A DNA stretch of 64,000 nt from Rhodoferax sp. Lineage in GTDB: Bacteria > Pseudomonadota > Gammaproteobacteria > Burkholderiales > Burkholderiaceae_C. Within the stretch, counting starts at the first letter, position 1. Every line of letters starts with the position of its first letter. The stretch is taken from contig NZ_JAQTWL010000013.1 in assembly GCF_028689295.1 (NCBI RefSeq), forward strand, positions 1 to 64,000, written 5' to 3'. Shown here in pieces: positions 37,628 through 61,982 of this stretch. Position numbers and translations under genes: made by a program. The notes below the pieces were generated by a model. It searched no databases, was not told the origin of the DNA, and worked only from the letters and a program-made list of their open reading frames with translations.

Positions 37628-37641
37628 ACCAACACGTCGGT
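37628..37641. promoter_or_regulatory. TetR-type operator, carboxylase operon
   Basis: ACCAACACGTCGGT differs from the consensus palindrome ACCGACGCGTCGGT at two positions and lies 90 bases upstream of the beta-subunit start. An AT-rich -10-like TATTAT follows on the - strand. Confidence 0.75.
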
Positions 37642-38188
37642 CTATTTATTTTTTTAACCACTCCAAAAATTTAGCCTTCTGATGTTTTGGTCTTGAAGAT
37701 GTCAGAGTGAAGTGGAATTTTTAGACTATCGTGTCCACTGTAAAGAAGATCGACACATGCAACTCCTAACTCATAAATCGCAGAAGTTCAATTGCCCGTG
37801 GGTGGCCACAGTAACGCTCGCTACAGCAATGATTTCAATCACCAAATAGAAGCCGCCCGTCTTTAGCGATGTACCTTCATTTCAGCAAATGCAATGGCTG
37901 CCTGTTAGAACCAAGACCACACTGAGTGACTCAGCCAATGAACACATAGCCCTACCGGAGAAGTCTCCGAGCGCTTTATGAGCGACTTCCAGGACCTCGA
38001 GGTCGAATATGTCGCAGCTTAAGAATTCATGGGGCCGAAGCAACAACTTGGCAACCTGTCGGAGAGAAATTGAGTAGCAGATGCCGTCTAGGCTAGTCCA
38101 ATGCAGCAATCTCGGCATCGAAAGCCAATTGGGTAGTAGCAGGTGCTTTCAGGTCTCGAAAATTCGATGTTTTTTCGATGTTTTTTGC
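37642..38188. other. Divergent intergenic gap, no gene seen
   Basis: The stretch between the carboxylase operon and the hydratase promoter holds no supported gene. A 78-codon frame on the - strand (37882-38118) has no convincing start or similarity. Codon-like pieces suggest old decayed DNA. Confidence 0.5.
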
Positions 38189-38239
38189 TTGACAAGAAAA
38201 ACTAATGCCGTTAATCTATTAACCGACTCAAACGTCGGC
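38189..38239 (+). promoter_or_regulatory. Promoter with variant TetR operator
   Basis: TTGACA (38189-38194), a 17-base spacer and TAATCT (38212-38217) form a strong sigma-70 promoter. Right after it lie ACCGAC (38222-38227) and GTCGGC (38234-38239), the two arms of the regulon palindrome but with 6 instead of 2 bases between them. It drives the hydratase at 38387. Confidence 0.65.
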
Positions 38240-38386
38240 TAATGAAATTGTGCACGGAAAAGCATTGTTGCACCTCTCTTAAGTTGGAGGGATAGCATCG
38301 CAAGCCTAGTCTAAGCATTGCCAATGTCAAGGCGTTTGGTTCTTTAAATTTGATCCTATATCACTCCATTTTTTTACGAGGTAAAC

Positions 38387-39196
38387 ATGCAACCCAACTA
38401 CGAACGCTACAAGAGCCTGACTTTCGATCGTCCTGCCCCTCGAGTGATTCGCATCACATTGACCTCACAGCTCAAGCTTGGCGTAATGGACCCCACAATG
38501 CACCGCGAATTGTCCGAGGTTTGGCGCGACGTTGATGCCGACGATACGGTATCGGCGATCATCATTACTGGGCAGGGTAAAACGTTTTCGGCCGGCGGCG
38601 ACCTCAAACATGAACTCAAGGTGGCAGTCGACTACGAGCTTCGCATGCAAGCAATGAAGGAGACGCGCGATCTCGTCTACAACATACTTCACTGCTCAAA
38701 ACCGATTGTGAGCGGCATACGGGGTTGGGCGGTAGGCGCCGGGCTGGCGGCTGGTCTTCTGGCTGATATATCGGTCGCAGCCAAGGATGCCAATTTCATG
38801 GATGGACATACTAAGATTGGCGTCACGGCAGGCGACTGCGCCATGATCATCTGGCCTCTGTTAGTCAGCATGGCCAAGGCTAAATACTATCTTATGTGTT
38901 GCGAGCGACTGACCGGTGAAGAAGCCGAGCGCATCGGCCTGGTTTCGATGGCTGTTCCTGACGAAGAAGTGGAGACCAAGGCGTTGGCCATCGCTACGTC
39001 CTTGGCCAACGGTGCGCCGGCCGCAATCCGATGGACCAAATACTCGCTAAACAGTTGGATCAAGAACGCTGGCCCCATCTTCGACGCGAGCGTGGCTTAT
39101 GAGTTTATTGGATTCGCCGGTCCCGAGGGGCTCGAAGGAATGAATGCGTTCTTGGAAAAGCGACCGACGCAATTCTCCGCACAAACCGTAATCTAA
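38387..39196 (+). CDS. Enoyl-CoA hydratase/isomerase family protein
   Basis: This 269-residue crotonase-fold enzyme has the oxyanion loop [14 protein letters not shown] (~60-73), the helix cap [19 protein letters not shown], and [15 protein letters not shown] in the catalytic-Glu region. The usual Glu residues are replaced there by a polar His/Asp pattern, so an isomerase or hydrolase activity is possible. A TetR-type promoter lies upstream and an acyl-CoA synthetase gene downstream, separated by a strong hairpin. Confidence 0.88.
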
Positions 39197-39210
39197 CTTG
39201 CGTGCACTAC

Positions 39211-39239
39211 CCGGCGGGCACTTCGCAGAGGCCCGCCGG
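39211..39239 (+). terminator. Intercistronic hairpin
   Basis: A perfect 9-bp stem (CCGGCGGGC/GCCCGCCGG) with an 11-base loop. There is no U-run, so it is either a weak terminator or an mRNA stabiliser between hydratase and synthetase. Confidence 0.55.
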
Positions 39240-39336
39240 TGTTAAGTGTGTCCACGCTTCCCCTAACTAGACATTCGACCTGGGCTATCCAGACTTACGC
39301 CGTCACCCTGCGAATTTTCAAATCGAGGACAAATTC

Positions 39337-41304
39337 ATGACAAAATTTCGGAACGAAGACGTTTGGTTTCCCACCAAAGAACTCAGCCAAAGTTGCAACC
39401 TGACGGCATTGATAAATCGGATGGGGTTGGACGACTACGACGCCTTTCTCCGTGAAACCATAGAACACCCCGAGCGATACTGGCAAGAAACGCTTCGCCA
39501 CTTTGACATTACGTTTTCTCCCCCCGCTCGTGCCTTTGTCGATACACAGAACGGCCCGATGTGGGCGCGCTTCTTCCCAGGTGCTGGCTTCAACATTGCG
39601 GTGTCATGCCTACGCCCACCCACAGGAAAAGACGGGCACAGTCAACCTGCCATTCTTGCTGAAGATGAGCAAGGCCACTGCGAATCGCTCAGCTATGGAG
39701 AGCTCTCCGCGCGCACCCGTGCGCTTGCGTCCGGACTAGCTTCCATCGGCGTCGAAAAAGGTGATCGTGTTGGTTTGCTCTTTCCCAGCACCTCCGAGGC
39801 CGTGGTCACCTTGTTAGCCGTCTGCTATCTTGGTGCTGTAGCGGTGCCCCTATACAGCGGCTTCGGCGCAGACGCCGTCGCTCGGCGGCTTTCAGACTGT
39901 GAGGCCAAGGTACTCATCGTGGCCCATGGTTTCGAACGCAAGGGACGATATGTACCCCTAGAAAAAATTGCGGTTGAAGCAGTCACCCAGCTACCTTCAT
40001 GCCAACTTGTGGTCGCATACGATAGTGACGATCAACGGCCAGTTGCCAGTCACCACCGCTGGCAGGACTTGGCCAATTCGACAGTCACGCACGAGCCCGC
40101 AGCGACCTTAGCCGAAGATCCTTGCATGATTCTTTACACGTCGGGCACATCTGGCAAGCCTAAGGGCGCCATTCACCGTCATGGAGGATTTCCCCTCAGG
40201 GTTGCTCAAGACACAGCGTTCATCTTTGATTTCAAGCAAGGTGAGCGGTATTTTTGGCCGAGTGATATGGGGTGGATGGTGGGTCCCTACTCGACGTTTG
40301 CCTCACTGATTCTGAAGGGCGCGCTAGTCCTTTACAGTGGCGCTCCAGACGTACCCAACATCGGTCGATTGCGGGCAACAGCGATTCGCCAGGGTGTTAC
40401 CCACTTTGGGACGACGCCAACGGCCATTCGCAGTATGGCCGTTGCTGAACAAGTAGTGCTCACCGGGCCGGCACCCAGTATTCGCGTACTAATGACCGGT
40501 GGGGAGGTGATGGACGAGGACGCACACGCTTGGTTGTTCCACCGCTTTGGTGAGGGAAAGCTTCCGATTATCAATTACACCGGGGGAACCGAATGTTCCG
40601 GCGCCATACTCACAAATGTTGTTTTGCGCCCGATTTACCCTTGCCGATTTAACAGCACTGCCCCAGGTGTCGATGCACAAGTGATCGATGAAGGGGGGCA
40701 TGCACTTATCGGTCAACCAGGGGAATTGGCAATTCGCAAACCGTTTAACGGAATGACAGCAGGCTTCTGGGGAGATCCCACACGATATGTTGAAACTTAT
40801 TGGTCCAGTATCCCGGATACATGGGTCCATGGTGACTTGGCGCTCCAGGAAGAAGACGGTCAATTTCTGCTACTTGGTCGCTCCGACGATGTCATGAAGA
40901 TATCCGGGCGTAGAGTGGGGCCGTCCGAAATCGAGGGCATAGTAATCGATGGCCGCATCGTTTCTGATGCGGTCAGCTTTGGGGTGCCCAATTCCCAATC
41001 CGGCGAAGCGATGATCGTATTCGCAGTCCCAGGACCAGAGGCCGGTCAAGACCCGGAGGACCGGATCGAGCAATACGTCAGCGACGTGATCCGAAAAAAG
41101 ATGGGGACTTCCTACCGCCCTCAAGCGGTTGTTACTCTGCAGGCACTGATAAAGACCCGGAATGGAAAACTGGTTCGTAGACTTGCCAGACAAGCCTGGC
41201 TTGGACAGCCGCCGGGTGATCTTAGTGCCGTTGAAGATCCAACTGTATTCGATCAAATGGCCGCAATTTGCGCCCAGAAACGCGCTCAAGCACTGTCATC
41301 GTGA
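39337..41304 (+). CDS. Acyl-CoA synthetase (acetyl/propionyl-CoA synthetase-like)
   Basis: This 655-residue adenylate-forming ligase activates a carboxylate with ATP and CoA. Motif A3 is ILYTSGTSGKPKGAIHRHGG (~265-284). FWPSDMGWMVGP, NYTGGTECSG, VHGDLALQEEDG and the hinge LLGRSDDVMKISGRRVGPSE follow, with the catalytic Lys in GKLVRRL near the end. The architecture, with a long N-terminal cap (EHPERYWQE), is that of the acetoacetyl/acetyl-CoA synthetase branch. With the ligase at 48.7 kb it is one of two activating enzymes in the island. Confidence 0.92.
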   Translation: MTKFRNEDVWFPTKELSQSCNLTALINRMGLDDYDAFLRETIEHPERYWQETLRHFDITFSPPARAFVDTQNGPMWARFFPGAGFNIAVSCLRPPTGKDGHSQPAILAEDEQGHCESLSYGELSARTRALASGLASIGVEKGDRVGLLFPSTSEAVVTLLAVCYLGAVAVPLYSGFGADAVARRLSDCEAKVLIVAHGFERKGRYVPLEKIAVEAVTQLPSCQLVVAYDSDDQRPVASHHRWQDLANSTVTHEPAATLAEDPCMILYTSGTSGKPKGAIHRHGGFPLRVAQDTAFIFDFKQGERYFWPSDMGWMVGPYSTFASLILKGALVLYSGAPDVPNIGRLRATAIRQGVTHFGTTPTAIRSMAVAEQVVLTGPAPSIRVLMTGGEVMDEDAHAWLFHRFGEGKLPIINYTGGTECSGAILTNVVLRPIYPCRFNSTAPGVDAQVIDEGGHALIGQPGELAIRKPFNGMTAGFWGDPTRYVETYWSSIPDTWVHGDLALQEEDGQFLLLGRSDDVMKISGRRVGPSEIEGIVIDGRIVSDAVSFGVPNSQSGEAMIVFAVPGPEAGQDPEDRIEQYVSDVIRKKMGTSYRPQAVVTLQALIKTRNGKLVRRLARQAWLGQPPGDLSAVEDPTVFDQMAAICAQKRAQALSS

Positions 41305-41348
41305 AAAAGCAACTTGTTTTCTGTGAATTTCCTGAATATGGTTTTGGT

Positions 41349-42315: not shown

Positions 42316-42355
42316 ATGGTTATTTAATAATACCCGTTAGCACTGTACCGATTTG

Positions 42356-43299: not shown

Positions 43300-43327
43300 A
43301 TAAATTTTTTCAAATAGATGACAGCGC

Positions 43328-48704: not shown

Positions 48705-50321
48705 TTAGCTCTCGGATGCCTTGGCTTGCTGATTGCGGTACTCATCGCGCAACTCGCGTTTCAATACCTTGCCGTAATTGGCGCGAGGGAAATCCTGCCG
48801 GAATTCCACCCTTGAGACGCGCTGGAATTTGCCGAGACGCTCGTTACCCCATGCGCACAACTCCGCTTCGCTGATCGTCGCGCCTTCGTGCATGATCGCC
48901 AGCAACAATGGGGTTTCGATCCACTTCTCATGCGGTACGCCAATAACAGCGACTTCCCTGACCTGCGGATGGCGCATGAAAATATCTTCAATGTCACTCG
49001 CAAAGATATTGATCCCGCCCGACTTGATCATGTCCTTGATGCGCCCCGTCACATACAGGAAACCATCCTCATCCATCCGACCGAGGTCACCGCTACGGAT
49101 GTAGGTGCGACCCTTGGGACCAATCCAAACTATATCTTTGGTCCGTTCTGCGTCGTTGTAATACCCCCGCATGAGGCCAGCGCCATATCCAGCGATTTCT
49201 CCGAACTCGCCGCGCGGCACCTCGCTCCCATTTTCATCAATGATACATATGTCAGCACCAAAGATCGGTACACCGACCGAACCTCGCTTGCCTTTCTCGT
49301 AATCCTTGGGACCAATGCAAAAGTAGAATCCCTCGGTCATTCCATAGCACTCGTAGATGCCGGCATTGGGGAAGGTTTCCAACAGGTCATCGAAGGTCTG
49401 ACCGGGCAAGGCTTGCCCGCCAGACAGAATTACCTGCATGCTCGAAAGATCGAGCGATTTTTCCTGCCGACTGGCAGCTATGAGTTTGATCGCCTGGGTT
49501 GGCACCATGAAGGTGTGGGTACACCGCTCGCGCGCAACCGTTTCAAGGAACTTTTCGGCGTCGAATCCCGACATCAGCACACAGGTTCCGCCTGAATAGA
49601 TTGTGGGGAGCATTGTCAACCAGGTGCCGTTGGTGTAGAGCGGCGTCGAGCAAAGCGTCCGGGTGTACTTGTCTACCAGAAGTTCCTGGCCATATCCAAT
49701 GGAAAACGCCAAACGACTGAAATGCGTATGTTCAATGCCTTTTGGAATACCAGTCGTCCCCGAGCTGTAGATGATATTCATCGGTTCACTCATCTGATGT
49801 GTGACATCTGGATCGTGGTTGGGCGCGTTTTCGATTAATTGTTCAGCCGAGGACCAACCTTCGGCGAGCCCATCGAAGGCAAAAGCTCCGCCAGGCTCGA
49901 TATGCTGCAGTTGGTGCCGGACCGCCTCCACTTGCTGGCGAGTCTCCGAATCAACAAACAGGAACCTGGCGTCGCTGTTATTGATCATCATGGGCAGGGT
50001 GTCAGCGGACATCATTACGTTCAAGGGCACTATCACGCCCCCCGCCTTGATCGTGCCCCAGCACATCTCGAACATCGCGATCGAATTTTTGCCAAGGATA
50101 CAGATCTTGTCTCCCTTGTTCAGTCCCAGCATCAACAATGCATTAGCTACCTGGTTGGTGCGAAGGTGGAATTCAGCCCACGACCGCCGTTGATCATTAC
50201 AGACTACAGCATCTTTTGTTGCAAAATACTTGGCGTTGCGCGCAATAAAATCGGTGTTGAAAAGCCCGGGGTTGTCCAAGATGCCAACATGAGCGGGTCT
50301 GGTCGGGATCGATTGAGTCAT
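48705..50321 (-). CDS. AMP-dependent acyl-CoA synthetase/ligase
   Basis: This 538-residue adenylate-forming enzyme has the P-loop motif IIYSSGTTGIPKGIEHTH (~195-212), ECYGMTEGFYFC, the hinge IRSGDLGRMDEDGFLYVTGR, and the C-terminal Lys in RANYGKVLKREL. It resembles medium/long-chain and bile-acid-type ligases. It would activate the acid brought in by the Liv importer, whose genes lie directly upstream in the same direction. Together with the ligase at 39-41 kb it provides two activation activities with different architectures. Confidence 0.92.
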   Translation of the reverse strand: MTQSIPTRPAHVGILDNPGLFNTDFIARNAKYFATKDAVVCNDQRRSWAEFHLRTNQVANALLMLGLNKGDKICILGKNSIAMFEMCWGTIKAGGVIVPLNVMMSADTLPMMINNSDARFLFVDSETRQQVEAVRHQLQHIEPGGAFAFDGLAEGWSSAEQLIENAPNHDPDVTHQMSEPMNIIYSSGTTGIPKGIEHTHFSRLAFSIGYGQELLVDKYTRTLCSTPLYTNGTWLTMLPTIYSGGTCVLMSGFDAEKFLETVARERCTHTFMVPTQAIKLIAASRQEKSLDLSSMQVILSGGQALPGQTFDDLLETFPNAGIYECYGMTEGFYFCIGPKDYEKGKRGSVGVPIFGADICIIDENGSEVPRGEFGEIAGYGAGLMRGYYNDAERTKDIVWIGPKGRTYIRSGDLGRMDEDGFLYVTGRIKDMIKSGGINIFASDIEDIFMRHPQVREVAVIGVPHEKWIETPLLLAIMHEGATISEAELCAWGNERLGKFQRVSRVEFRQDFPRANYGKVLKRELRDEYRNQQAKASES

Positions 50322-50426
50322 GGTTTATCTCCAAATATTTAACAGGTTATCCAGTTTCGTTTTTACGGGAAAGGATATGTGTCTTAGGTGCGAGGAATCG
50401 ATGAAAATGGTCTCGGCGCCGTTTCT

Positions 50427-51155
50427 CTAATGGATACCCAAATAGAGCTGCTGGACCTGATCGTTATCACGCAAGGATGATGCCTCGCCCTCCAAGGCGA
50501 TGCGACCATTCTCTAAACAATATCCGTAGCTGGAATATTCCAAAGCAAGCTCGGCGTTTTGCTCGACCAGCAGGACCGTGAGTTGACGTGCCTCGGTGAG
50601 TTTGCGCACCTTCTCGAAAATATCCTCAACAATCATGGGAGCCAGTCCCAGAGACGGCTCATCCAGCAGAATGACGCGGGGATCGCTCATCAACGCGCGC
50701 CCAATCGCCAGCATCTGCTGCTCACCACCAGACAGATAACCCGACAACTGCATCCGGCGCTCCTGTAGGCGGGGAAAAAATTCGTAAATTTCGTCTAAGC
50801 TTTCTCGTAGCTTTGCCTTGCTTTTAACCACATGGGCGCCAACGATCAGGTTTTCCTCAACAGTCAGACTTTGGAACACGCGCCGCCCCTCGAACACCTG
50901 AACAAGGCCCATTTTGACAATGTCAAAGGGCTTTTGTTTTGAGATATCCAAACCATCGAAACTGACCGAACCGCGCGTCAATTCACCGCGCTCGGCCGAT
51001 AGCAGGCCAGATATAGCCTTAAGAGTAGTAGTTTTTCCGGCGCCGTTGGCGCCCAACAAGGTCGTTATCATCCCTTGTTTTGCTGTGAGAGAGATTCCCT
51101 TGAGGACGAGAATAACCCCGTCATAAACCACTTCAACATTGTTTAGAACCAGCAT
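50427..51155 (-). CDS. livF: ABC transporter ATP-binding protein, LivF type
   Basis: This 242-residue ATPase of a branched-chain amino acid-type importer has Walker A LLGANGAGKTTTLKAI (~33-48), signature LSGGEQQMLAIGRAL, Walker B VILLDEPSLGLAP and the Liv-type ending. It pairs with LivG for the two ATPase sites and lies 79 bases from the binding-protein gene. Liv-type systems often import aromatic or short branched carboxylates in catabolic islands, consistent with its place here. Confidence 0.94.
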   Translation of the reverse strand: MLVLNNVEVVYDGVILVLKGISLTAKQGMITTLLGANGAGKTTTLKAISGLLSAERGELTRGSVSFDGLDISKQKPFDIVKMGLVQVFEGRRVFQSLTVEENLIVGAHVVKSKAKLRESLDEIYEFFPRLQERRMQLSGYLSGGEQQMLAIGRALMSDPRVILLDEPSLGLAPMIVEDIFEKVRKLTEARQLTVLLVEQNAELALEYSSYGYCLENGRIALEGEASSLRDNDQVQQLYLGIH

Positions 51156-51234
51156 CCGTGTACCTGTAGATGAGGCGAATGGAAAGGGATATATCCTGTC
51201 CCATCCGCCTGGTTAGCGATTACCGAACCGGGGC

Positions 51235-52488
51235 TCAGTTGCCCTGCTTGATGATTTCGGCCTTGACTTCTGGATAGGCATTGAACCATTCCGTGACCTT
51301 GGTGAACTTACCCTTTTGCACTTGGAACACCTGAAGCCAGCCACCTCCCTCGTGGTCGTTGGCTGTGATGTGCAGCGGAGGTACCAGGTCACCCAGACTG
51401 ACTAGGTTCTCTTTCGAAATGCTCTCAAAAGCCACTTTCATTTCGTCGCCGGTGACTTTACTGCCCTTATTCTTCTTGAGTGCCAGCCTCAAGGCCTCGA
51501 TCTGTATGGCCGTATGAAACAACCATCGGTTGTAATAGACGGTCGATTCCATGACCTTGGGTATGGGCTTACCCTCCGCCGTGTACATGGCCTTGATATC
51601 CTTGACCACCTGGTAGTTGTCGCCCACACCGGCAAACTGCAGACCATAGTAGCCGTCGGCGATTTCACCGCCGCCAGCTGCCTCGAGGTCCGACTCTGCG
51701 GCGCCCCAAGCCAGCGAAATCACCTTGTCCAGCGGAAAGCCGACGCGCTTCAGAGCCTTGATGCCTACCGATGGCGCACGGCCAAACAGATTAGCGATAA
51801 GGAAGTCGGGCTTAAAGCGTTGGCTGATGTCGATGACCTGAGCAGCCATTTCAAGCCCTGGAGGCGGTACGGCGAATGACTTTAATTCGAACCCTTCACG
51901 TTTCGCCAGCGCTTCGAGCACCGGGATCGGCTCACGTCCGGTCGGATTGTCGACGAACAGAAATCCTATCTTCTTGCCCTTCAAGCCACCAAGCTTGTTG
52001 CCTACGAACTTGACCGCTGCAGCGCCTTGCGAATAAAAGGTTGCCGCGATTGGGAACAGATATGGGTATTTGACGCCATCAGCAGCATTGGCAGTGCCAA
52101 AACCCGGTGAAGTACCCGGAATGTGGTCCTCCGCCATGCGTTGCTGTAACGATTGAACATGAGGGGTGCCGTAAAGCATGATTGACACTGCACCATCTTT
52201 CTTGAAGCGCTCATAGGCCTCAATACCTTGCGGTACTTTGTACTCAGTATCGATCTCGAGTGCCCGGACCTTCCGACCTTCAACACCGCCTTTGAGGTTC
52301 ACCAACTTGACGTAGTCCTGAATTGCTGAACACATGATGACCCCGGAAGATTGCGTGGGACCGGTTCTGTCACACAGCACGCCCAAGACCACTTCATTTA
52401 CCTGCGCGACTCCTTGCGTCGCGTACATGCTCATTCCGAGCCCGGCACTGAGTGCCATTACGCTCTTGATCCAAATCCTTTTCATCAT
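51235..52488 (-). CDS. ABC transporter periplasmic substrate-binding protein (Liv type)
   Basis: This 417-residue type I periplasmic binding protein has a Sec signal peptide (~1-29: Lys/Arg, then VMALSAGLGMSMYATQGVAQ) with cleavage near Ala-Gln. The mature domain begins NEVVLGVLCDRTGPTQSSGV, the usual ligand-edge Ser/Thr motif of the family. The ligand is not readable; the gene context suggests an organic acid rather than an amino acid. A strong AAGGAG ribosome site precedes ATG 52488 (52485 is also possible). Confidence 0.92.
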   Translation of the reverse strand: MMKRIWIKSVMALSAGLGMSMYATQGVAQVNEVVLGVLCDRTGPTQSSGVIMCSAIQDYVKLVNLKGGVEGRKVRALEIDTEYKVPQGIEAYERFKKDGAVSIMLYGTPHVQSLQQRMAEDHIPGTSPGFGTANAADGVKYPYLFPIAATFYSQGAAAVKFVGNKLGGLKGKKIGFLFVDNPTGREPIPVLEALAKREGFELKSFAVPPPGLEMAAQVIDISQRFKPDFLIANLFGRAPSVGIKALKRVGFPLDKVISLAWGAAESDLEAAGGGEIADGYYGLQFAGVGDNYQVVKDIKAMYTAEGKPIPKVMESTVYYNRWLFHTAIQIEALRLALKKNKGSKVTGDEMKVAFESISKENLVSLGDLVPPLHITANDHEGGGWLQVFQVQKGKFTKVTEWFNAYPEVKAEIIKQGN

Positions 52489-52554
52489 TGTCTCCTTTTA
52501 GAGGTTTATAGAGTTTTTAAGCTCTGAGGGTGGGGGAAATTAGCGTTTTTATCG

Positions 52555-53622
52555 TCAAGCAGCCTGATCTGAGCCACGGAAACGACTCCGTGCCTTTAGC
52601 CAGATCTTGTTGAGACCATCGGGTTCCTGCACGATAAACACGATGATTAAAAAACCGAAAACGATCATTCTCAAGTGAGGAATATAGGAGGCCAAGTCTC
52701 CAGCGCCAGAGAATACATTCGCAACAGCCTCTAGCGCCCAACGACTAGCGATCGGCAACAAGGTAACAAAGACGGCACCCAGAATTGAGCCCCTGACCGA
52801 GCCCAGACCACCAATGATGATCATGGCCAGGTAGTCTATTGAGACATTGATCTGGAATTGCTCGTAGTTCGCGACTCCAAGATAGTATGTGTAGAGAATC
52901 CCCGCCACACCAGCGTAAAACGATGAAATGAGGAACGCGATAAGTTTGTAGCGGCTAATGTTGATACCCATGATCTCGGCAGCTATGTCCTGATCTCGGA
53001 TCGCAATAAAAGCGCGTCCGATGCGGGTCCGCTTGATGTTCAAAGCCGCAATGATGGCAATTATCACGAAGGGAACTAAGAAGTAATAGAAATTTTGCTG
53101 CGTTTTTAAGGTCATCCCAAACACACTTGGTCGAGGTACGTTGATTGAAGTCGCGACACCACCCGAGATCGCCGGAACATGGTTGATGAGCCACTCGATG
53201 ATCAACTGCGCCGCTAGGGTTGAGACCACGAGGTAGATGCCACGAATCCTGAGTGAAGGAAGACCCACCACCACTCCAATAAGCGCCGCCATCAAGCCCG
53301 CGGCTGGTATAGCGAGCCAGAACGGAGCATCCAGACGAACGATCAGGTTGGCACCCATGTAGGCACCAACTGACATGAAGGCACCGTGGCCGATTGAAAC
53401 CTGACCGGTATTACCCACAAGAATATTCAATCCTATTGCGCCAATGATTGCAATGAAGATCAGATTAAAGATCGAAAGGTAGTATTCGTGTCCAATCAAT
53501 GGCACGATACCGATGAACACGACGGCCAACGCGGCCACGGTGACGCGTGACGTTGTAGTGGGACACAAAGACATATCTACAGGGAGTAGGATTTTTTTTG
53601 TGTCAGAGGTGTTGAGAAGCAT
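52555..53622 (-). CDS. livM: ABC transporter permease, LivM type
   Basis: This 355-residue membrane permease has about 9-10 hydrophobic helices (for example VAALAVVFIGIVPLIGHEYY, FLIIVFIVQEP) and the conserved GNTGQVSIGHGAFMSVGAYM and GLPSLRIRGIYLVVSTLA loops. The EAA-like coupling segment RTRIGRAFIAIRDQDIAAE is present. Unusually, it has its own TetR-operator promoter, and ~520 bp separate it from livH. It pairs with LivH to form the channel. Confidence 0.93.
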   Translation of the reverse strand: MLLNTSDTKKILLPVDMSLCPTTTSRVTVAALAVVFIGIVPLIGHEYYLSIFNLIFIAIIGAIGLNILVGNTGQVSIGHGAFMSVGAYMGANLIVRLDAPFWLAIPAAGLMAALIGVVVGLPSLRIRGIYLVVSTLAAQLIIEWLINHVPAISGGVATSINVPRPSVFGMTLKTQQNFYYFLVPFVIIAIIAALNIKRTRIGRAFIAIRDQDIAAEIMGINISRYKLIAFLISSFYAGVAGILYTYYLGVANYEQFQINVSIDYLAMIIIGGLGSVRGSILGAVFVTLLPIASRWALEAVANVFSGAGDLASYIPHLRMIVFGFLIIVFIVQEPDGLNKIWLKARSRFRGSDQAA

Positions 53623-53653: not shown

Positions 53654-53703
53654 ACCGACGTGTCGGTTTTGTAGTTTATAGGACTGTTTACAAGTTCTGT
53701 CAA
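53654..53703 (-). promoter_or_regulatory. livM promoter with TetR operator
   Basis: On the - strand TTGACA (complement of 53698-53703), a 17-base spacer and TATAAA (complement of 53675-53680) form a near-consensus promoter. The palindrome ACCGACGTGTCGGT (53654-53667) lies just downstream of the -10, where a bound repressor would block initiation. Confidence 0.85.
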
Positions 53704-54140: not shown

Positions 54141-55034
54141 TCAAATTCGGTCAATGGTCTTTTTGCCGAACAGGCCATGAGGCCTGAACATGAGCACGGC
54201 TATCATCATTACGTAGGGGATCAGATCCTTCGTTCCGCCACCCAGATACGTATCCAGATATCCAGCTGTTAAGTTTTCAATCACGCCAACCAGTACGCCG
54301 GCAATCACCGCTCCGGCCACCGAGTCCAAGCCACCAAGGATCACGACAGGAAATACCTTCAAGCCTACCGAAGCTAACTGGTTATCCACTCCTAGCAAGC
54401 TACCCCAGAACACACCCCCGACCGCGGAGACTATGCCGGCAAGCGCCCAAGCATACGCAAAGTAGAGCGGTACATTGATGCCCATACCCATGGCAACCAT
54501 CTGCGAGTCCGCGACCGCACGCAACGCGATGCCAACCCTAGTGCGGGCGAACAGCCAACTAAACGCCACCATGAAAATAACGCTGACAACAGCACCTGCC
54601 AACTGCACAGGCGGAATCATCAGGGGACCCAAAAATATCGGTTTGTCGTCAAAAGGTAATGGAATGGTCCCCATTCCGGAACCAAAAACCAAGGGGGCAA
54701 CGCCACGGATCATGGCCGCCAAACCGATCGTAGCCATAACTACGGCAATGACCGGACGTCCGACCAAAGGACGAAGAACTACTCGCTCAAGGGCGAAACT
54801 AAACACGACCATTGTCAATATCGTTACGCCAGCTGCCACCCAGAAATTAGCAGCCCAGGCGGATACAGCGCCGGCGACGATCCCAGCGAGCATCACGAAC
54901 TCTCCCTGCGCAAAATTGAGCGCATCGGTCGCCTTGTACACAAGCACAAACCCCATCGCGATTAAGGAATACATCAGGCCGACCAACACGCCGTCAGTCA
55001 AGAGCAACACAAAAAAACTTAGATCAGAAGACAT
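54141..55034 (-). CDS. livH: ABC transporter permease, LivH type
   Basis: This 297-residue inner-membrane permease has about eight hydrophobic helices (LLLTDGVLVGLMYSLIAMGF; LNFAQGEFVMLAGIVAGAVS; VFPVVILGGLDSVAGAVIAG) and the Liv-type coupling segment TRVGIALRAVADSQMVAMG. The ending PHGLFGKKTIDRI is typical. It is 53 bases after livG and is expected to form the transmembrane pore with LivM. Confidence 0.94.
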   Translation of the reverse strand: MSSDLSFFVLLLTDGVLVGLMYSLIAMGFVLVYKATDALNFAQGEFVMLAGIVAGAVSAWAANFWVAAGVTILTMVVFSFALERVVLRPLVGRPVIAVVMATIGLAAMIRGVAPLVFGSGMGTIPLPFDDKPIFLGPLMIPPVQLAGAVVSVIFMVAFSWLFARTRVGIALRAVADSQMVAMGMGINVPLYFAYAWALAGIVSAVGGVFWGSLLGVDNQLASVGLKVFPVVILGGLDSVAGAVIAGVLVGVIENLTAGYLDTYLGGGTKDLIPYVMMIAVLMFRPHGLFGKKTIDRI

Positions 55035-55087
55035 TTTTTACCTCACTATCGTTAAAGGGCGGGGTTTTCTCAACACAGCTATCTGAT

Positions 55088-55891
55088 TCATTTGCGGCGC
55101 TCCCTGCGGGTGCCCAGATAGGCCTGGATCACCGCAGGATTACCTTGGACCTCAGCTGGACTCCCTTCGGCGATCTTCTTACCCCGTTCTATAACGACAA
55201 CACGCTGCGAAATATCCATCACGATCCCCATGTCGTGCTCAATCAGCACGATTGTGGTTCCGCGCTTGTCATTGACATCGCAGATAAATCTGGCCATTTC
55301 TTCTTTTTCATCCTGATTCATGCCGCCCATCGGTTCATCGAGCAGCAGCACGCGGGGCTCTAGCGCCATTGCACGCGCCAACTCCACACGCTTGCGCAGG
55401 CCATAAGCTAGCTCACCAGTCATTTTTTCCCGCAGATGGGTTAAGCCAAGAAAATGCATGATCTCCTCGGCACGCGCCCGGTGAACCTCCTCCTCCTTCC
55501 GAGCCGCCCCCCAAAAAATCGCGTTCGCCAACAGTCCACAGGACATATGGACGTGGCGTCCCAGCATCACGTTTTCAAGCACCGTCAATCCGGTGAACAA
55601 GGCAATATTCTGAAAGGTGCGCGCTATGCCCAACGAGGCGATGCGCGAAGGCCCAATGGCAGTGATGTCCACCCCATCGATCGATATCTGACCAGAGTCG
55701 GGCACATAGAAGCCACTGATGATATTCAATAAGGATGTCTTACCCGCGCCGTTTGGGCCAATGATCGAGACGATCTCCCCACCGCCAAACGATACCGAAA
55801 CATCCGAGGTCGCTTGTACGCCCCCAAAACGTTTCGAGACCCCAGTGACGACCAGACCCTGAAGGGCGGATGATGAATTGCTTGAAACCAT
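55088..55891 (-). CDS. livG: ABC transporter ATP-binding protein, LivG type
   Basis: This 267-residue ATPase has Walker A IIGPNGAGKTSLLNIIS (~38-54), the LivG-type insertion (~95-130, HVHMSCGLLANAIFW), signature LAYGLRKRVELARAM, Walker B VLLLDEPMGGMN and switch His LIEHDMGIVMDIS. It is the first gene of the importer and synthetase operon. A promoter and TetR-type operator lie 78-121 bases upstream, back to back with the promoter of the dehydrogenase at 56194. Confidence 0.94.
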   Translation of the reverse strand: MVSSNSSSALQGLVVTGVSKRFGGVQATSDVSVSFGGGEIVSIIGPNGAGKTSLLNIISGFYVPDSGQISIDGVDITAIGPSRIASLGIARTFQNIALFTGLTVLENVMLGRHVHMSCGLLANAIFWGAARKEEEVHRARAEEIMHFLGLTHLREKMTGELAYGLRKRVELARAMALEPRVLLLDEPMGGMNQDEKEEMARFICDVNDKRGTTIVLIEHDMGIVMDISQRVVVIERGKKIAEGSPAEVQGNPAVIQAYLGTRRERRK

Positions 55892-55968: not shown

Positions 55969-56012
55969 ACCGACGCGTTGGTTATGCTAACTTCTTTAAC
56001 ATTTTTAATCAA
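55969..56012 (-). promoter_or_regulatory. livG promoter with TetR operator
   Basis: On the - strand TTGATT (complement of 56007-56012), a 17-base spacer and TAGCAT (complement of 55984-55989) form the promoter. The operator ACCGACGCGTTGGT (55969-55982) directly follows the -10, differing from consensus by one base. Confidence 0.82.
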
Positions 56013-56120: not shown

Positions 56121-56172
56121 TTGACAAAAACGCGTAAAGCTGCTTACACTTCATTTTAACCGACGCGTCGGT
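56121..56172 (+). promoter_or_regulatory. Promoter with perfect TetR operator
   Basis: TTGACA (56121-56126), an 18-base spacer and TACACT (56145-56150) are followed by the perfect palindrome ACCGACGCGTCGGT (56159-56172) over the expected start site. It drives the dehydrogenase at 56194. Confidence 0.9.
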
Positions 56173-56193: not shown

Positions 56194-57345
56194 ATGACAA
56201 TTTATTCCGAAGAGCATGAACAACTCAGACGCCAGGTGAGGCGTTTTGTCGAAACCGAGATCATTCCTAACGGAGAAAAGTGGGAGCGCGAAGGCAACGT
56301 CCCTCGTGAGTTCATTAAACGAATGGGAGACCTTGGTTTTCTAGGCATCGGCTTTCCCGAGGCCTACGGCGGAAGTGGCATGGACTTCATCGGCTGGATG
56401 GTCTTAGCCGAGGAATTGGGTCGAAGCACGTATGCCGGCGTGGTTGGCGTCGCGACTGTTCACACGCTGATGGCAGCCCCCCACCTTATGCATGCGGGCA
56501 ATGCTGAACAGCTAGAGCGTTACATGCCTGGCATCGTAAGCGGCGAACTTCTTACTGCGGTTGCAATCAGCGAGGCGGATGCTGGATCTGATGTCGGCGC
56601 GATGCGGACCAAAGCAATCCGGACTGAGGGTGGCTGGCTCCTCAACGGCACAAAGTATTGGATCTCAAACGGAGTTAACGCGGACTTGTATTTTGTTGCC
56701 GCGCGAACCGATGCTGCGGGCAAAGGAGCCAAGGGTATCAGCATGTTTATCGTTGAAAAGAATACGCCTGGCTTCAAGGTGAGTCGCAAGCTGGATAAAT
56801 TGGGGTTCCGAGCTAGCGACACTGCCGAGCTGATTTTCGACGATTGCTTAGTACCGACCTCCAACTTGCTCGGCGAGGAACATCGTGGCTTTTATGCCGT
56901 GATGGAGAATTTCCAGACCGAGCGGCTGATTCTCTGCACACTTAACATTGCCGAGTGCATGACTGCGCTTGGTTTCACTATTCAGTACGTGCGGGATCGC
57001 AAGGCATTCGGAGTGGCCTTGGTAAAGCACCAGGTCCTGCGCCAGAAGATTTCGATGCTCTTAGCTCGAGCCGAAGCCGGACGTCGGATGGTTCAGCACG
57101 CTGCAATCCTGTTAGCAAAGGGAGAAAAGGCAATTCTTGAAGTCTCGATGGCGAAGGCCTATTGTGGCGAACTTGTTAACGAAACCATGTACACATGCCT
57201 CCAATTTCACGGTGGAGCCGGATTTCTGAAAGGCACAGCCATCGAGAGAATGTTCCGGGATGCTCGCCTTTATTCAATCGGCGGCGGAGCTACTGAAGTG
57301 ATGCTTGAGGAAGTCGCCAAGCGATGGGATGAGATCGAATTTTGA
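56194..57345 (+). CDS. Acyl-CoA dehydrogenase (long/branched-chain type)
   Basis: This 383-residue flavoprotein has AVAISEADAGSDVGAMRTKA and WLLNGTKYWISNGVNADLYF (FAD/substrate beta-domain), RKAFGVALVKHQVLRQKIS, FHGGAGFLKGTAIERMFRDA and IGGGATEVMLEEVAKRW. The pattern is of the LCAD/citronellyl-CoA-like branch, in which the catalytic Glu sits in the helix before the C-domain rather than in YEGT. It is led by a perfect TetR operator promoter and followed 10 bases later by a hydratase gene, so the two likely act in sequence. Confidence 0.93.
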   Translation: MTIYSEEHEQLRRQVRRFVETEIIPNGEKWEREGNVPREFIKRMGDLGFLGIGFPEAYGGSGMDFIGWMVLAEELGRSTYAGVVGVATVHTLMAAPHLMHAGNAEQLERYMPGIVSGELLTAVAISEADAGSDVGAMRTKAIRTEGGWLLNGTKYWISNGVNADLYFVAARTDAAGKGAKGISMFIVEKNTPGFKVSRKLDKLGFRASDTAELIFDDCLVPTSNLLGEEHRGFYAVMENFQTERLILCTLNIAECMTALGFTIQYVRDRKAFGVALVKHQVLRQKISMLLARAEAGRRMVQHAAILLAKGEKAILEVSMAKAYCGELVNETMYTCLQFHGGAGFLKGTAIERMFRDARLYSIGGGATEVMLEEVAKRWDEIEF

Positions 57346-57355
57346 ATTCTGAGAA

Positions 57356-58174
57356 ATGATGATGACTAAACTTCTAGACAACGCTTCCGATCCAAAGGTG
57401 CTGATCACGCGCAGCGATGGGATCGCCACGATTACTTTAAACCGAAGCAGTGAAAGCAACCCGATAAGTTGGAGCCTAGGAACCGAATTGTTGCATGCAC
57501 TCGATGCATTAGAGGACGACAAGTCAGTGTCTTCTGTTGTCCTGACAGGCGCCGGTCGTGTATTCTGCTCCGGAGCCAAACTTGGTGAGGTCGTGAAACC
57601 CGAGGGCGTAAATCCCGAGGAACAATATTACGGCTTTCGTGACATCGTGCGAGTGGTCAGTCGAATCAGGAATTATGAGTTGCCAGTCATCTGCGCACTC
57701 AACGGTGGAGCCGTCGGCGGTGGAGCCGCCCTCGCCATTGCCTGCGACTTAATAGTCTCGTCGGAGAGCGGGTACTGCTTCTTCCCATTCGGTCGGGTGG
57801 GTGCCTCTGCTGCCGATATGGGTTGCGCTTATCTGCTGCCACGCTTGATCGGGATGACCCAGGCTCGCCGACTCCTGTACACGGGCGGGCGCGTGGAGGC
57901 GCAAGAAGGCAAGGCACTAGGCCTCTTTCTGGACGTCGTGCCGGATGACAAGCTACTGGCTGAGTCGTATCGTCTGGCCAGACAGATCCAAGAATCGGCA
58001 CCGCGGCACGCTTTGACTGCAACCAAGCAGGTACTGCTGCGCGGTGAGACAACGGAATTTGAGACATGTCTAACCTATGAGCGCTACCTGCAATCGTACT
58101 TCCTTAACGGAGACGAACACAAACGGCTCCTGCTCTCTTTTCTTGCGGCTAAGTCCGAGAGCAAAAAAAAATAA
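57356..58174 (+). CDS. Enoyl-CoA hydratase family protein
   Basis: This 272-residue crotonase-fold protein has the oxyanion loops GRVFCSGAKLGEV (~66-78) and NGGAVGGGAALAIACDLIV (~112-130), then FPFGRVGASAADMGCAYLLP in the catalytic-Glu region. The usual paired Glu is replaced by Gly/Ala, and Asp lies further on, so it may be an isomerase or hydrolase. It starts in a run of three ATG codons 10 bases after the dehydrogenase and is in the same operon. Confidence 0.9.
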   Translation: MMMTKLLDNASDPKVLITRSDGIATITLNRSSESNPISWSLGTELLHALDALEDDKSVSSVVLTGAGRVFCSGAKLGEVVKPEGVNPEEQYYGFRDIVRVVSRIRNYELPVICALNGGAVGGGAALAIACDLIVSSESGYCFFPFGRVGASAADMGCAYLLPRLIGMTQARRLLYTGGRVEAQEGKALGLFLDVVPDDKLLAESYRLARQIQESAPRHALTATKQVLLRGETTEFETCLTYERYLQSYFLNGDEHKRLLLSFLAAKSESKKK

Positions 58175-58253
58175 ACGTGCAGAAACGACTTCCGCATGGA
58201 GCCTGTCAGTAATTTTGTGTGCAAGGCATAACATCCCAGAAAAGGATGTCTTC

Positions 58254-58505
58254 ATGCCTCGCAATTCAATGATACTCGCGGCAAGCGGCAATGCCGCCCT
58301 GCCGCAACTCACAGAGAAAATGCTCGAAGAACTCATACCTAGTCCTGTGACCAAAGCGTAATTCGAGGACATCTTCCAGAATCTCAACAAGCCTTCGTTG
58401 AGCGCGCCTTGAGCTCCGTGATGAGCCGCCACCTGGGCTACGGTGCTGGACATCGAGGGCGCCTCCAACCACCGAAATGGCAGCAGCGCCACGACAGTGA
58501 TCTCC
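58254..58505 (+). pseudogene. IS256-family transposase N-terminal remnant
   Basis: ALPQLTEKMLEELIPSPVT, then FEDIFQNLNK, and in a shifted frame AFVERALSSVMSRHLGYGAG and NHRNGSS, match the start of an IS256-family transposase. Stops and frameshifts are frequent and the catalytic part is absent. This fills the gap between two hydratase genes. Confidence 0.8.
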
Positions 58506-58574
58506 GCCAACCTTAGCTTCAGTCAGTCGTCTCAGCAAGTGCGCCTAACAAGAGTTTTAACTAAGGAATTTCTT

Positions 58575-59372
58575 GTGAATACTCAAATTTACCATTCTCT
58601 GGTCAAGGTATGGGTGAACGGCCCTGTCGGAATCATCGAACTGGCTCAACCTGAGAAATTCAATTGTCTTTCAACTGAGTCGTTTCTCTTGATCGACGTA
58701 GCGCTCAGGAAGTTCGAGCACGAAAGCTCGGGTGTTAGGTCCATCCTCATTCAATCCCAAGGAAAACATTTCTGCACTGGTGCGGACTTGAATGAAGTTA
58801 AGGCTTTAAGGAAAAGTCCGGAACGATTGCACCACTTCTTTCGAACTGCTCATGATGTGCTGTGCAATCTAGAGGCAAGTCCATTGCCAGTGGTTATCGC
58901 ATGTCAAGGTCTTTGTTTGGCTGGAGGCCTCGAACTTGTATTGGCGGGGGACATCGTGTTTGCCGACGTGGCAGCGCGTTTTGGAGACCAGCATGCTGCG
59001 TTTGGCTTCGTCCCGGGCTGGGGGGGAAGTCAACGCCTTTCCAGAGTGGTCGGCCTTCGCCGTGCTATGGATCTCATGTTAGCCGCGCGTTGGATCGACT
59101 CCACCATAGCGCTCGAGTGGGGGCTCGTTAACTATGTTTGCGAACCAGGCACTTTGCATGATGCTGCTCTTAATTATTGCAGAACTCTCGCCACTAGGAG
59201 TCGAACGGGAATCGGCACCATGAAGCACCTTGCACGCCGAGGGGCCGACAAAGGCCTATTAAACGGCTTGCGATTCGAGGAAGACATCGCCAGCGGTCTG
59301 GTTCTGGGTCAAGATGTGGAAGAAGGACTCAAAGCTTTCGAGCAGCGTCGAAAACCGTCGTTCAAGTCATGA
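58575..59372 (+). CDS. Enoyl-CoA hydratase family protein
   Basis: This 265-residue protein begins at GTG 58575 with AAGGAA upstream; the longer frame before it is IS256 debris. It has GKHFCTGADLNEVKAL (oxyanion loop), CQGLCLAGGLELVLAGDIVF and RFGDQHAAFGFVPGWGGSQR, where one Glu position is Gln or Ala, so it may have an altered activity. The IS256 remnant separates it from the dehydrogenase-hydratase operon upstream, but it reads in the same direction. Confidence 0.88.
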   Translation: MNTQIYHSLVKVWVNGPVGIIELAQPEKFNCLSTESFLLIDVALRKFEHESSGVRSILIQSQGKHFCTGADLNEVKALRKSPERLHHFFRTAHDVLCNLEASPLPVVIACQGLCLAGGLELVLAGDIVFADVAARFGDQHAAFGFVPGWGGSQRLSRVVGLRRAMDLMLAARWIDSTIALEWGLVNYVCEPGTLHDAALNYCRTLATRSRTGIGTMKHLARRGADKGLLNGLRFEEDIASGLVLGQDVEEGLKAFEQRRKPSFKS

Positions 59373-59482
59373 ATACACCTGCTCATCTCGACCGTCCATC
59401 GATAAAAAATACCCTCCAGCGAGGTTTAAAAGGTTTTGTGTAGACGGTCTATTGGCAGGAAACTGCTATCTTGCATCGAGCA

Positions 59483-59955
59483 ATGATGATCGTAGAAATG
59501 AAACCCTTACCGAACGACCTGATTGACGCCCTGCTGGCGGACTACAAAAAGCCCGAAGACCTGTTTGGTCAGAACGGCCTCTTGAAGCAACTGACCAAGG
59601 CCCTGGTCGAACGGGCACTGTAAGCCGAATTGACCGACCACCTCGGTCATGGCAAGAACCAGTTGGTCGCCAATGAGGCTGACAACACCCGCAACGGGCG
59701 TAGCAAGAAAGCGCTCAAAGGGGACTTTGGCGAACTGCCCATTGAAATCCCCCGCGACCGCGCTGGTACCTTCGAGCCCCAAATCATCACCAAGCACCAG
59801 ACTCGCTGGAGCGGCTTTGACGAGAAGATTTTGTCGCTGTACGCCCGTGGCATGACAGTGCGCGAGATTCAAAGTCATCTGCAGGAAATGTACGGTGGAG
59901 AAGGGTCACCCACCCTGATTTCATCGGTGACCAATGCCTTCATGGATGTCGTATA
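59483..59955 (+). pseudogene. IS256-family transposase N-terminal half with ochre stop
   Basis: From ATG 59483 the frame reads LPNDLIDALLADYKKPEDLF and TKALVERAL, then an ochre stop at 59621, then AELTDHLGHGKNQL and NTRNGRSKKALKGDFGELPI, SLYARGMTVREIQSHLQEMY and LISSVTNAFMD, all N-terminal IS256 hallmarks. It then ends abruptly next to the DUF2889 gene. This is a different subgroup from the remnant at 41-42 kb, so the two are not halves of one element. Confidence 0.88.
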
Positions 59956-59978
59956 CACTTATTGCAGGAGAACCAGTA

Positions 59979-60578
59979 TTACCTCTTGAGATGGAATTTC
60001 GGGAAATGCGTCGCGACTACCTGGCTGCTGCGTTCCCATGAGTGGCAGTTGTCAAGGAAGAACGGCATATCAGACCCGGCTGCTCTTGGCGAACCGAGTT
60101 CCTTCATGTATTGGTCGCGGTAGCACGAAATAGTCTGGAATGCAGTGGTTGCCATCGCGAGGAACAACTCCCTGATGTGCGTGCACCCATCTGTTTCACC
60201 CATCGCATCGTTAACCGATCTGCGCCAGCCACTACCAACGTGTGCTCCTTTCAGGCCATCAACACCTTTCAGTGCTCCTAAGCAATATGCGAAAGGATTG
60301 GCCTGCATAGCGGCATACGCCTCAACAACCTGCATATCATGATTGAGCGTTAAGCGGGCGTGCATATGGTGAACGGGGTAACCGACTGGAAGAAGACCAC
60401 GTTCAAGGTCCTCGTAGGCGTAAGATTTCCGGTCGATGAGCTCACCGTCGAATTCCCAAAGTCCGTCGTCCCGAAGAAATCCTTCGCTCTTTACGATCCG
60501 GGTGTGGAGTGCGCGACGAGGTGTTGGCAGCGGCAAAGACAGTTCGGAAGTGGTCGACGGCATCATGGATAAACTCAA
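59979..60578 (-). CDS. DUF2889 protein (second copy)
   Basis: This 199-residue protein of unknown function has the family pattern: RIVKSEGFLRDDGLWEFDGE, HHMHARLTLNHDMQVVEAYA, GLKGAHVGSGWRRSVND and the Cys/His segment GETDGCTHIRELFLAMATTA, which it shares with the copy at 42.7 kb. It starts three bases after the racemase-type gene and is probably co-transcribed with it. The duplicated association with acyl-CoA genes suggests an accessory role in the pathway, but no activity can be assigned. Confidence 0.87.
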   Translation of the reverse strand: MSLSMMPSTTSELSLPLPTPRRALHTRIVKSEGFLRDDGLWEFDGELIDRKSYAYEDLERGLLPVGYPVHHMHARLTLNHDMQVVEAYAAMQANPFAYCLGALKGVDGLKGAHVGSGWRRSVNDAMGETDGCTHIRELFLAMATTAFQTISCYRDQYMKELGSPRAAGSDMPFFLDNCHSWERSSQVVATHFPKFHLKR

Positions 60579-60581
60579 GTC

Positions 60582-61745
60582 TCAGTTCCGCACTGGGGCT
60601 GTGCTGACATAAACGGCCCCTTGGGCTACGAGTCGCTCGATCTCTTGTGCAGATATCCCGACATTGGAAAGAGCCTGAATGCTATGCTGCCCAACCATGG
60701 GGATTTCAGCTGAAGCCTTGGATGGCGTACGACTAAAGCGGGGAGCCGGGGCAGGTTGCGGTGTTCCATTCACGTTGATGAAAGTCTGGCGCGCACGATT
60801 ATGAGGGTGTTCTGGCGCTTCCGTCATGCTCAATACCGGCGCGAAGCAGACGTCAGAGCCCTCCATGAGTTCACTCCATTCGGCACGTGTCTTCGTCTTA
60901 AAAAGCACACTTAGTTGTTCGCGGAGTCTAGGCCATGTTGCGGCATTGAGTTGGTCTTCGAACTCGGGTACATCGAGTCCACACATCTGCAGGAGGAGCC
61001 GATAGAACTGTGGCTCGATCGACCCAATTGCAATGAAGCGTGAGTCCGCACACTCATATGCACCGTAGAAATGGGCGCCACCATCTAGGAAATTAGCACC
61101 ACGCCGATCCTGCCATTGACCTTGCGCAGCCATACTGTAAAAGGGCGACATCAGCAGCGCAGAACCATCCGTCATTGCTGCGTCGATCACCTGTCCTTGT
61201 CCCGAACGCTGACGTTCTTGCAATGCCGCGAGTACACCCACTAGCAGGAGCATCGCGCCGCCGCCGTAGTCCCCAACCAAATTTAGCGGTGGTGCTGGCG
61301 GTCGGTCTGGCCAACCCATGGCATGCAGCGCACCAGTGAGCGCGATGTAGTTGATGTCGTGTCCAGCTGAATGGGCTAACGGACCGGTCTGGCCCCAGCC
61401 AGTCATGCGTCCGAAGACTAGACCTGGATTGCGAGCAAGACATACCTCAGGCCCCAAGCCGAGCTTCTCCATGACTCCCGGTCGAAAGCCCTCGAGCAGA
61501 ACGTCGGCTGTGTCGATCAATCGCAACAAAGCATCAATGCTTGCTGGATGCTTCAAATCCATAGAAATTGAGATCCGGCCTCGGTTCTCAAAGCTGGGGG
61601 ACGCATTACCGTCGCTAGATATAACTGGGATGCGATCGATGCGGATGATTTCTGCCCCCATGTCAGCCATAATCATGGCCGCAAAGGGGACCGGCCCAAT
61701 AGCGGCTAGTTCGATGACTTTAAGTCCGTTGAGCGTACCGTTCAT
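60582..61745 (-). CDS. Alpha-methylacyl-CoA racemase-like class III CoA-transferase
   Basis: This 387-residue family III CoA-transferase is closest to alpha-methylacyl-CoA racemase, which inverts the 2-methyl stereocentre of branched acyl-CoAs. The match is strong: [52 protein letters not shown] and [11 protein letters not shown]. The catalytic residues known from the mycobacterial enzyme correspond to His129, Asp159 and Glu231, with the His-Asp spacing of 30 conserved. It implies substrates with a 2-methyl group, as in isoprenoid or steroid side chains. A TetR operator lies upstream. Confidence 0.92.
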
Positions 61746-61849
61746 GTTTTATTCCACATTGACTTGATTACCAAAATGCCAATTCGGCCCAGTGACGAAT
61801 CTAAAGCACATAGACGTGCATGCACCTTACTTATAAAGTTTAAGTATAG

Positions 61850-61863
61850 CCCGACGCGTCGGT
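61850..61863. promoter_or_regulatory. TetR-type operator, racemase operon
   Basis: CCCGACGCGTCGGT matches the consensus palindrome except at the first base. It lies 105 bases upstream of the racemase start, beside a -10-like TATACT on the - strand. Confidence 0.82.
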
Positions 61864-61961
61864 ACATAAAAATGGACTTCAAAGAAGGCGTGACTCAGAG
61901 TCAGCTAGATGCCAAATAAAAGGCCGACCTATCCAGACAAATTTTAGTCTTTTTAGTCTAG

Positions 61962-61982
61962 TCCGTCGAGACGGTCTATAAT
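61962..61982 (+). promoter_or_regulatory. Variant TetR operator and -10 box, SDR gene
   Basis: TCCGTCGAGACGGT (61962-61975) is a palindromic variant of the regulon operator, directly followed by a perfect TATAAT (61977-61982). It is placed to control the SDR gene at 62099. Confidence 0.6.

Follow-up and report, generated by a model that had tools for sequence, protein, structure and literature searches.

Results

The locus and its recurring palindrome

The window, by which we mean the whole stretch of DNA that was analyzed, comprises 64,000 nucleotides of a Rhodoferax sp. genome (contig NZ_JAQTWL010000013.1, positions 1 to 64,000). It contains a putative catabolic cluster for coenzyme A (CoA) esters, one gene for a TetR-type regulator and a 14-bp palindrome, ACCGACGCGTCGGT, which recurs at this cluster and is the subject of this report. 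The genome totals 3.49 Mb in 72 contigs, and the contig holding the window (C48) is 97.8 kb long. A first-pass annotation had placed the palindrome or a near copy at five positions and a single tetR gene at 27944-28567. We recovered all five sites, with no more than two mismatches to ACCGACGCGTCGGT each, and the gene, which has matches to the TetR_N and TetR_C_24 domains. Sites are listed without strand, with mismatches to ACCGACGCGTCGGT in parentheses for the five; L040 is a contig from a relative, described below.

27944 to 28567, minus strand: TetR/AcrR repressor gene, proposed member of a PaaR sister clade and candidate regulator (TetR_N 3.5e-17, TetR_C_24 8.1e-14)
37628 to 37641: predicted operator ACCAACACGTCGGT (two), 65 bp upstream of the carboxyltransferase gene as given by its longest reading frame; counterpart of L040:4233
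38222 to 38239: predicted variant operator ACCGAC-TCAAAC-GTCGGC, with 4 extra central bases relative to L040:4102, the perfect palindrome at the corresponding position
53654 to 53667: predicted operator ACCGACGTGTCGGT (one), 7 bp downstream of TTGACA-17-TATAAA
55969 to 55982: predicted operator ACCGACGCGTTGGT (one), beside the weak promoter TTGATT-17-TAGCAT
56159 to 56172: predicted perfect operator ACCGACGCGTCGGT (none), between promoter and start codon
61850 to 61863: predicted operator CCCGACGCGTCGGT (one), 104 bp upstream of the CoA-transferase gene
61959 to 61978: predicted variant operator TAGTCCGTCGAGACGGTCTA, upstream of a short-chain dehydrogenase/reductase (SDR) gene
C48:69449, outside the window: further predicted operator, upstream of an EthD-domain gene and a flavin mononucleotide (FMN) oxidoreductase gene

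Three variant sites had also been proposed. The one at 61962 proved well founded, as the 20-mer TAGTCCGTCGAGACGGTCTA has no mismatch to a wider family consensus, TAGWCCGNCNNGNCGGWCTA, which was written after this site and the sites of relatives were known. At 38222 the positional counterpart in L040 indicates the same operator, but the center is 4 bp longer and the site may be weakened; the unit behind it, an enoyl-CoA hydratase (ECH) and an acyl-CoA synthetase gene, may consequently be repressed less tightly here. The tentative site at 27824 was dropped, having five mismatches by eye and no counterpart among the 14 best L040 matches. The regulon, which had been drawn from sites within the window, seems to continue past its end, to 69449.

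Distribution of the palindrome in the genome

In 200 dinucleotide shuffles of the window, sites with at most one mismatch numbered 0.015 on average (maximum 1) and those with at most two mismatches 0.21 (maximum 2), compared with four and five observed. All five window sites lie between genes; by our own gene calls, about 24% of the contig is non-coding. They are also the top five matches on C48 to a matrix built from these same sites. Across the whole genome, 46 places match ACCGACGCGTCGGT with at most two mismatches, 7 on C48 and 39 on other contigs. Six of the seven (the five window sites and 69449) are intergenic, whereas of the 39 elsewhere 34 are coding and 5 intergenic (Fisher p = 0.0003). 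At most one mismatch leaves eight places, five on C48 and three coding ones elsewhere. The wider consensus is matched, with at most two mismatches, at six places in the genome: 61959, 53651, 69446, 70146 and the coding position 17949 on C48, and one place in a carB-like gene. This distribution indicates that the regulon is local, as the first-pass annotation had held; random scatter through coding DNA, the pattern that would have spoken against an operator, was not what we found, since the palindrome is intergenic in the window and, where it has AT-rich flanks, in the cluster regions of relatives.

Several places were set aside. The seventh match on C48, at 71311, is coding and lies within a sucC-like gene; C43:132207 lies inside a carB-like gene (both names read from sequence), C50:2543 between the genes for ribosomal protein S7 and EF-G, and C22:96144 in a stretch of broken frames, and these last three were treated as chance matches.

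The reversed pattern is commoner in the genome than the 14-mer itself (89 versus 46 places at two mismatches), so there is no genome-wide enrichment, as one would expect if the sites were chance occurrences or GC-rich palindromes of a coding type. Against this explanation stand the local excess over shuffles, the intergenic placement and the conservation, with controls, described next, and we regard it as extremely improbable. Because the 14-mer and the wider consensus were both derived from the sites themselves, the independent test lies in other genomes.

The palindrome accompanies relatives of the regulator

The closest relative of the window TetR, at 76% identity, is encoded on L040, a contig of a Comamonadaceae metagenome-assembled genome, and this was the only locus above 38% identity among seven returned by the TetR search. 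L040 carries, on one strand, genes for a carboxyltransferase, a biotin carboxylase, an HMG-CoA-lyase-like protein, an ECH, the TetR, an OB-fold protein and a thiolase; the two dehydrogenase-like genes of the window operon are absent from this row. Its carboxylase operon continues through tetR, which follows about 150 bp after the ECH gene. The divergent control region between this operon and its partner holds a perfect palindrome at 4102 and ACCGACGCGTTGGT at 4233. Window site 37628 corresponds to the latter within a 52-bp block of 81% identity, and window site 38222 to the former, with the same promoter.

More distant relatives (E <= 1e-20) are present in 137 of 299 sampled genomes of the family. 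We took cluster stretches from G105, G122, G196, G272, G137 and the Variovorax sp. SRS16 plasmid NZ_LR594668, with genes called by a homology-trained caller. These six hold eleven TetRs with 33-43% identity to the window TetR. The exact core CCGNCNNGNCGG lies 79-155 bp upstream of the aligned start in 8 of the 11 (two each in G105, G122, G196 and G272), and the tetR promoters of SRS16 and G137 carry it with one core mismatch. In the former four genomes the first TetR gene adjoins a homologue of the window dehydrogenase at 56194 (48-49%), and homologues of the CoA-transferase (55-60%) and of the DUF2889 protein (32-35%) lie within 10 kb of tetR. The core also occurs between genes at other promoters of the same clusters.

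Over eight regions (the six relatives, L040 and C48), all 31 AT-flanked cores, defined as those with at least 7 A or T among 10 flanking bases, are intergenic, whereas 73 of the 80 cores without AT-rich flanks are coding. For 15 control GC palindromes of the same shape, the number of AT-flanked sites between genes was 0 or 1 in every case. Sites 37628 and 55969, with one deviating core base each, escape the core test.

In seven loci (L124-L130) of carboxylase relatives at 61-64% identity, the three best matches per locus included no exact core with AT-rich flanks; in L125-L127, all of one genus, a near-palindrome that is AT-flanked but departs from the core at one or more bases lies close behind the carboxyltransferase gene. 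On Variovorax sp. SRS16 plasmid 3 (L123), which comes from linuron-contaminated soil, the same palindrome family occurs at 14392, 19933 and 36378; nearby are tetR, an operon for a liv-type transporter and a gene pair for a ring-hydroxylating dioxygenase and a ferredoxin.

These comparisons bear on whether the palindrome might belong to another regulator, either the neighboring LysR (25051-25962) or another TetR of this genome. The lack of a site immediately before the window tetR and the proximity of the LysR gene would fit such an assignment. However, the palindrome is found together with this clade in seven other genomes or records, and in six of them it stands in the tetR promoter itself, one-mismatch cores counted. 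The genome has six TetR_N genes, and the other five have no match to the window TetR at E 1e-4. In addition, a perfect 14-bp dyad is typical of TetR operators and not of LysR sites. We consider control by another regulator improbable.

The clade and its recognition helices

In a tree of 37 TetRs, the window protein, its L040 counterpart and the eleven relatives form one branch (100/100), and 24 outgroup TetRs, those whose loci were at hand, form another. A paaE-like gene lies in the same 3-kb locus in 19 of the 24 outgroup cases and was not seen in five, and the outgroup was taken as PaaR on this basis. By eye, no exact AT-flanked core was found among the two best upstream matches of each outgroup TetR.

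The operator of Burkholderia cenocepacia PaaR, ACCGACCGGTCGGT, is placed between -35 and -10 and called necessary for repression in the accessible text of PMC2770484. It agrees with the window palindrome at 12 of 14 positions, with only the two central bases differing. This agreement, and 30-35% identity to the PaaR group, would suit the simpler view that the window TetR is PaaR and the cluster the phenylacetate pathway. We consider that view very improbable: the genome, which is 96.8% complete, has no match to the PaaA/PaaC family (PF05138), the window TetR falls outside the PaaR clade, on a separate 100/100 branch, and G122, G196 and G272 carry, besides members of the present clade, a PaaR-group TetR gene no more than 4 kb from paa genes. 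Among eight loci inspected for the PaaR operator in front of paaA, a close match (2 mismatches) was present only in G105, and G272 had one with 3 mismatches.

Recognition helices within the clade read SKSM (window, L040 and four others), SKSH (six) or SKSN (G272c), and those of five aligned outgroup proteins SKP or SKA. A purine-pyrimidine center occurs, by eye, in 11 of 11 sites of the SKSM class (four own-promoter sites, two in L040 and the five strong window sites) and in 1 of 6 own-promoter sites of the SKSH class. Tentatively, and with somewhat less than even confidence, we read these patterns together as a PaaR sister clade of the Comamonadaceae that is split into SKSM and SKSH specificity classes and mostly autoregulated. 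Each class would drive its own LivKHMGF/CoA-ester module through a slightly different version of the palindrome; only the SKSM regulator was found here, and 61962 and 69449 would be orphan or cross-recognized operators. We found no description of such a clade in the open-licence literature searched, where the motif letters gave matches only on the phenylacetate pathway and papers on DUF2889 were, by their titles, not on regulation.

The TetR protein and its gene

The window protein scores 62.3 bits to PF00440 and 52.3 bits to PF17932 and is modeled with nine helices, in keeping with the TetR/AcrR family. Fold comparison places 3ccy, AibR in complex with isovaleryl-CoA, and PfmR nearest to the model; FasR and FadR rank lower. 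Since acyl-CoA-binding TetRs are among these nearest neighbors, the effector is probably an acyl-CoA; DarR, a cyclic di-AMP protein, ranks seventh, so that the fold alone does not settle the effector.

Between the ECH gene and tetR, at approximately 28584-29655, lies a remnant, about 1.1 kb long, that carries a transposase domain of the IS1595 type and imperfect terminal repeats (16/20) and is absent from L040. The window tetR may have lost its operon promoter.

Promoters and gene units at the sites

Sigma-70 promoters had been proposed just upstream of four sites. The one at 56121 passes our promoter scan; those at 53698, 38189 and 56007 are absent from the scan listing, the last being a weak match.

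56121 to 56150, plus strand: sigma-70-like promoter TTGACA-18-TACACT, passes the scan, precedes 56159
53703 to 53675, minus strand: promoter TTGACA-17-TATAAA (53698 above), good by eye, fails the scan rules, precedes 53654
38189 to 38217, plus strand: promoter-like TTGACA-17-TAATCT, good by eye, below the scan threshold, precedes 38222, present in L040 too
56012 to 55984, minus strand: weak promoter TTGATT-17-TAGCAT (56007 above), precedes 55969

The gap between -10 box and palindrome is 1-8 bases at these four promoters, so that a dimer bound there would lie over the start region.

The sites had been said to join carboxylase, hydratase, importer, dehydrogenase, racemase and SDR units. The units behind the sites, with the genes downstream of tetR, are as follows.

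29795 to 37562, minus strand: putative carboxylase operon of six genes, behind 37628
35931 to 37562, minus strand: carboxyltransferase of this operon
33920 to 35989, minus strand: biotin carboxylase of this operon
32949 to 33923, minus strand: HMG-CoA-lyase-like gene of this operon
31691 to 32872 and 30588 to 31655, minus strand: two acyl-CoA-dehydrogenase-like genes, that at 30588 named by reading the sequence
29795 to 30595, minus strand: ECH gene of this operon
26220 to 27796, minus strand: OB-fold/zinc-ribbon protein and thiolase-like gene, downstream of tetR
38387 to 41304, plus strand: enoyl-CoA hydratase/isomerase and acyl-CoA synthetase unit, behind 38222
48705 to 53622, minus strand: LivM-like permease (named by reading the sequence), LivK-type binding protein, LivF-like ATPase and acyl-CoA ligase
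54141 to 55891, minus strand: LivG-like ATPase and LivH-like permease, both named by reading the sequence
56194 to 59372, plus strand: acyl-CoA dehydrogenase and two enoyl-CoA-hydratase-like genes, the latter named by reading the sequences
59979 to 61745, minus strand: class III CoA-transferase/racemase-like gene and DUF2889 gene
62099 to 62860, plus strand: SDR oxidoreductase, behind 61959-61978

The carboxyltransferase scores 595 and 547 bits against AccD1 and methylcrotonyl-CoA carboxylases versus 411 against geranyl-CoA carboxylase, and it has a paralogue (54%) elsewhere in the genome. We therefore guess, with somewhat less than even confidence, that the acyl-CoA of the pathway is branched-chain or isoprenoid-like.

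The livG promoter and 5' end recur as two decayed copies on opposite strands, C48:70112-70533 and C48:66633-66998 (about 8112-8533 and 4633-4998 in L016 coordinates), with operator remnants ATCGCCACGTCGGT at 70149 and ACCGACGCGGTGGA at 66942. The catabolic cluster has thus undergone duplication and decay, and the recurrence of the stretch in both copies supports a promoter-operator unit at 55969. A Mutator-family transposase fragment lies within the cluster at 59630-59989.

Elsewhere in the window, biotin-synthesis-like genes (class III and class I/II aminotransferases and a BATS radical SAM protein) adjoin a cytochrome P450 gene at 19303-24942, a pairing that recalls BioI-type pimelate supply. 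A HipA-like gene lies at 8025-9356, and a reading frame of 1937 codons at 277-6090 has no Pfam match at 1e-12.

Discussion

Because the comparative evidence ties this TetR clade to the palindrome, we consider it highly probable that the TetR encoded at 27944-28567 has the palindrome (core ACCGACGCGTCGGT, family consensus TAGWCCGNCNNGNCGGWCTA) as its operator and would repress a local CoA-ester cluster. The sequence comparisons thus support a local regulon under a TetR repressor akin to PaaR, PfmR and AibR. A TetR dimer would sit on the start region of the promoters that drive a LivKHMGF-type importer, acyl-CoA ligases, acyl-CoA dehydrogenases, hydratases, a CoA-transferase, a biotin carboxylase and an HMG-CoA-lyase-like enzyme, and would block initiation until an acyl-CoA intermediate binds it and causes its release. 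In L040, tetR is a distal gene of the carboxylase operon and would therefore repress itself through that operon's operator, the counterpart of 37628; in the present genome the IS1595-type remnant now separates tetR from that operon.

Several observations weigh against this interpretation. No palindrome lies in the immediate 350 bp upstream of tetR in either the window or L040, and one clade member, G272c, lacks the core in its own promoter. The site at 38222 is malformed, the strict scan finds one of the four promoters named earlier, and the promoter at 61850 is unclear, with TATACT beside the site and no good -35 by eye. The confidence of the TetR model is middling (predicted local distance difference test score, pLDDT, 65). 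Finally, the AT-flank threshold and the wider consensus were set after some sites were known, although the controls shared that threshold.

The analysis provides a testable regulator-operator pair and a bounded regulon for a catabolic cluster, and it would bring DUF2889, class III CoA-transferases and LivKHMGF importers together within a single regulatory circuit. Paralogous TetR-operator pairs, in which the half-site is kept and the center varied, could serve as a model for operator specificity diverging from PaaR and as a source of acyl-CoA sensors.

Comparison with known systems

Among acyl-CoA-responsive TetRs, MbdR was set aside, since its operator, ATACN10GTAT in the accessible text of PMC4424350, is unlike the window palindrome. 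The TetR regulators FadP and LiuQ have been predicted for betaproteobacteria, and FadP for Comamonadaceae as well, according to the portion available of PMC5343134; by description, they resemble the present regulator in controlling fatty-acid or branched-chain amino-acid catabolism in the same group. AibR (PDB 5k7z, with isovaleryl-CoA and operator DNA) is a fold neighbor whose effector, by its entry title, is an acyl-CoA, but it shares 26% identity. PfmR of Thermus thermophilus (TTHB023; PDB 3vpr) is likewise a fold neighbor, and its predicted site, TACCGACCGNTNGGTN as quoted in PMC7022988, is a similar pseudopalindrome; its identity is 26-27% over the aligned model, and regulon and organism differ.

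PaaR of B. cenocepacia, as far as the accessible texts describe it, is likewise a TetR repressor with a near-identical operator at core promoters, controls a CoA-thioester pathway over several units and has its gene after the main operon, in the same orientation. A review (PMC9493321, seen in excerpt) names compound II of the phenylacetate pathway as releasing PaaR, and a title in its reference list names phenylacetyl-CoA as the effector of Thermus PaaR. The present system differs from PaaR in the central dinucleotide of its palindrome, in the lack of a PaaA/PaaC-family gene in this genome, in its separate clade and, in L040, in having tetR inside the operon itself.

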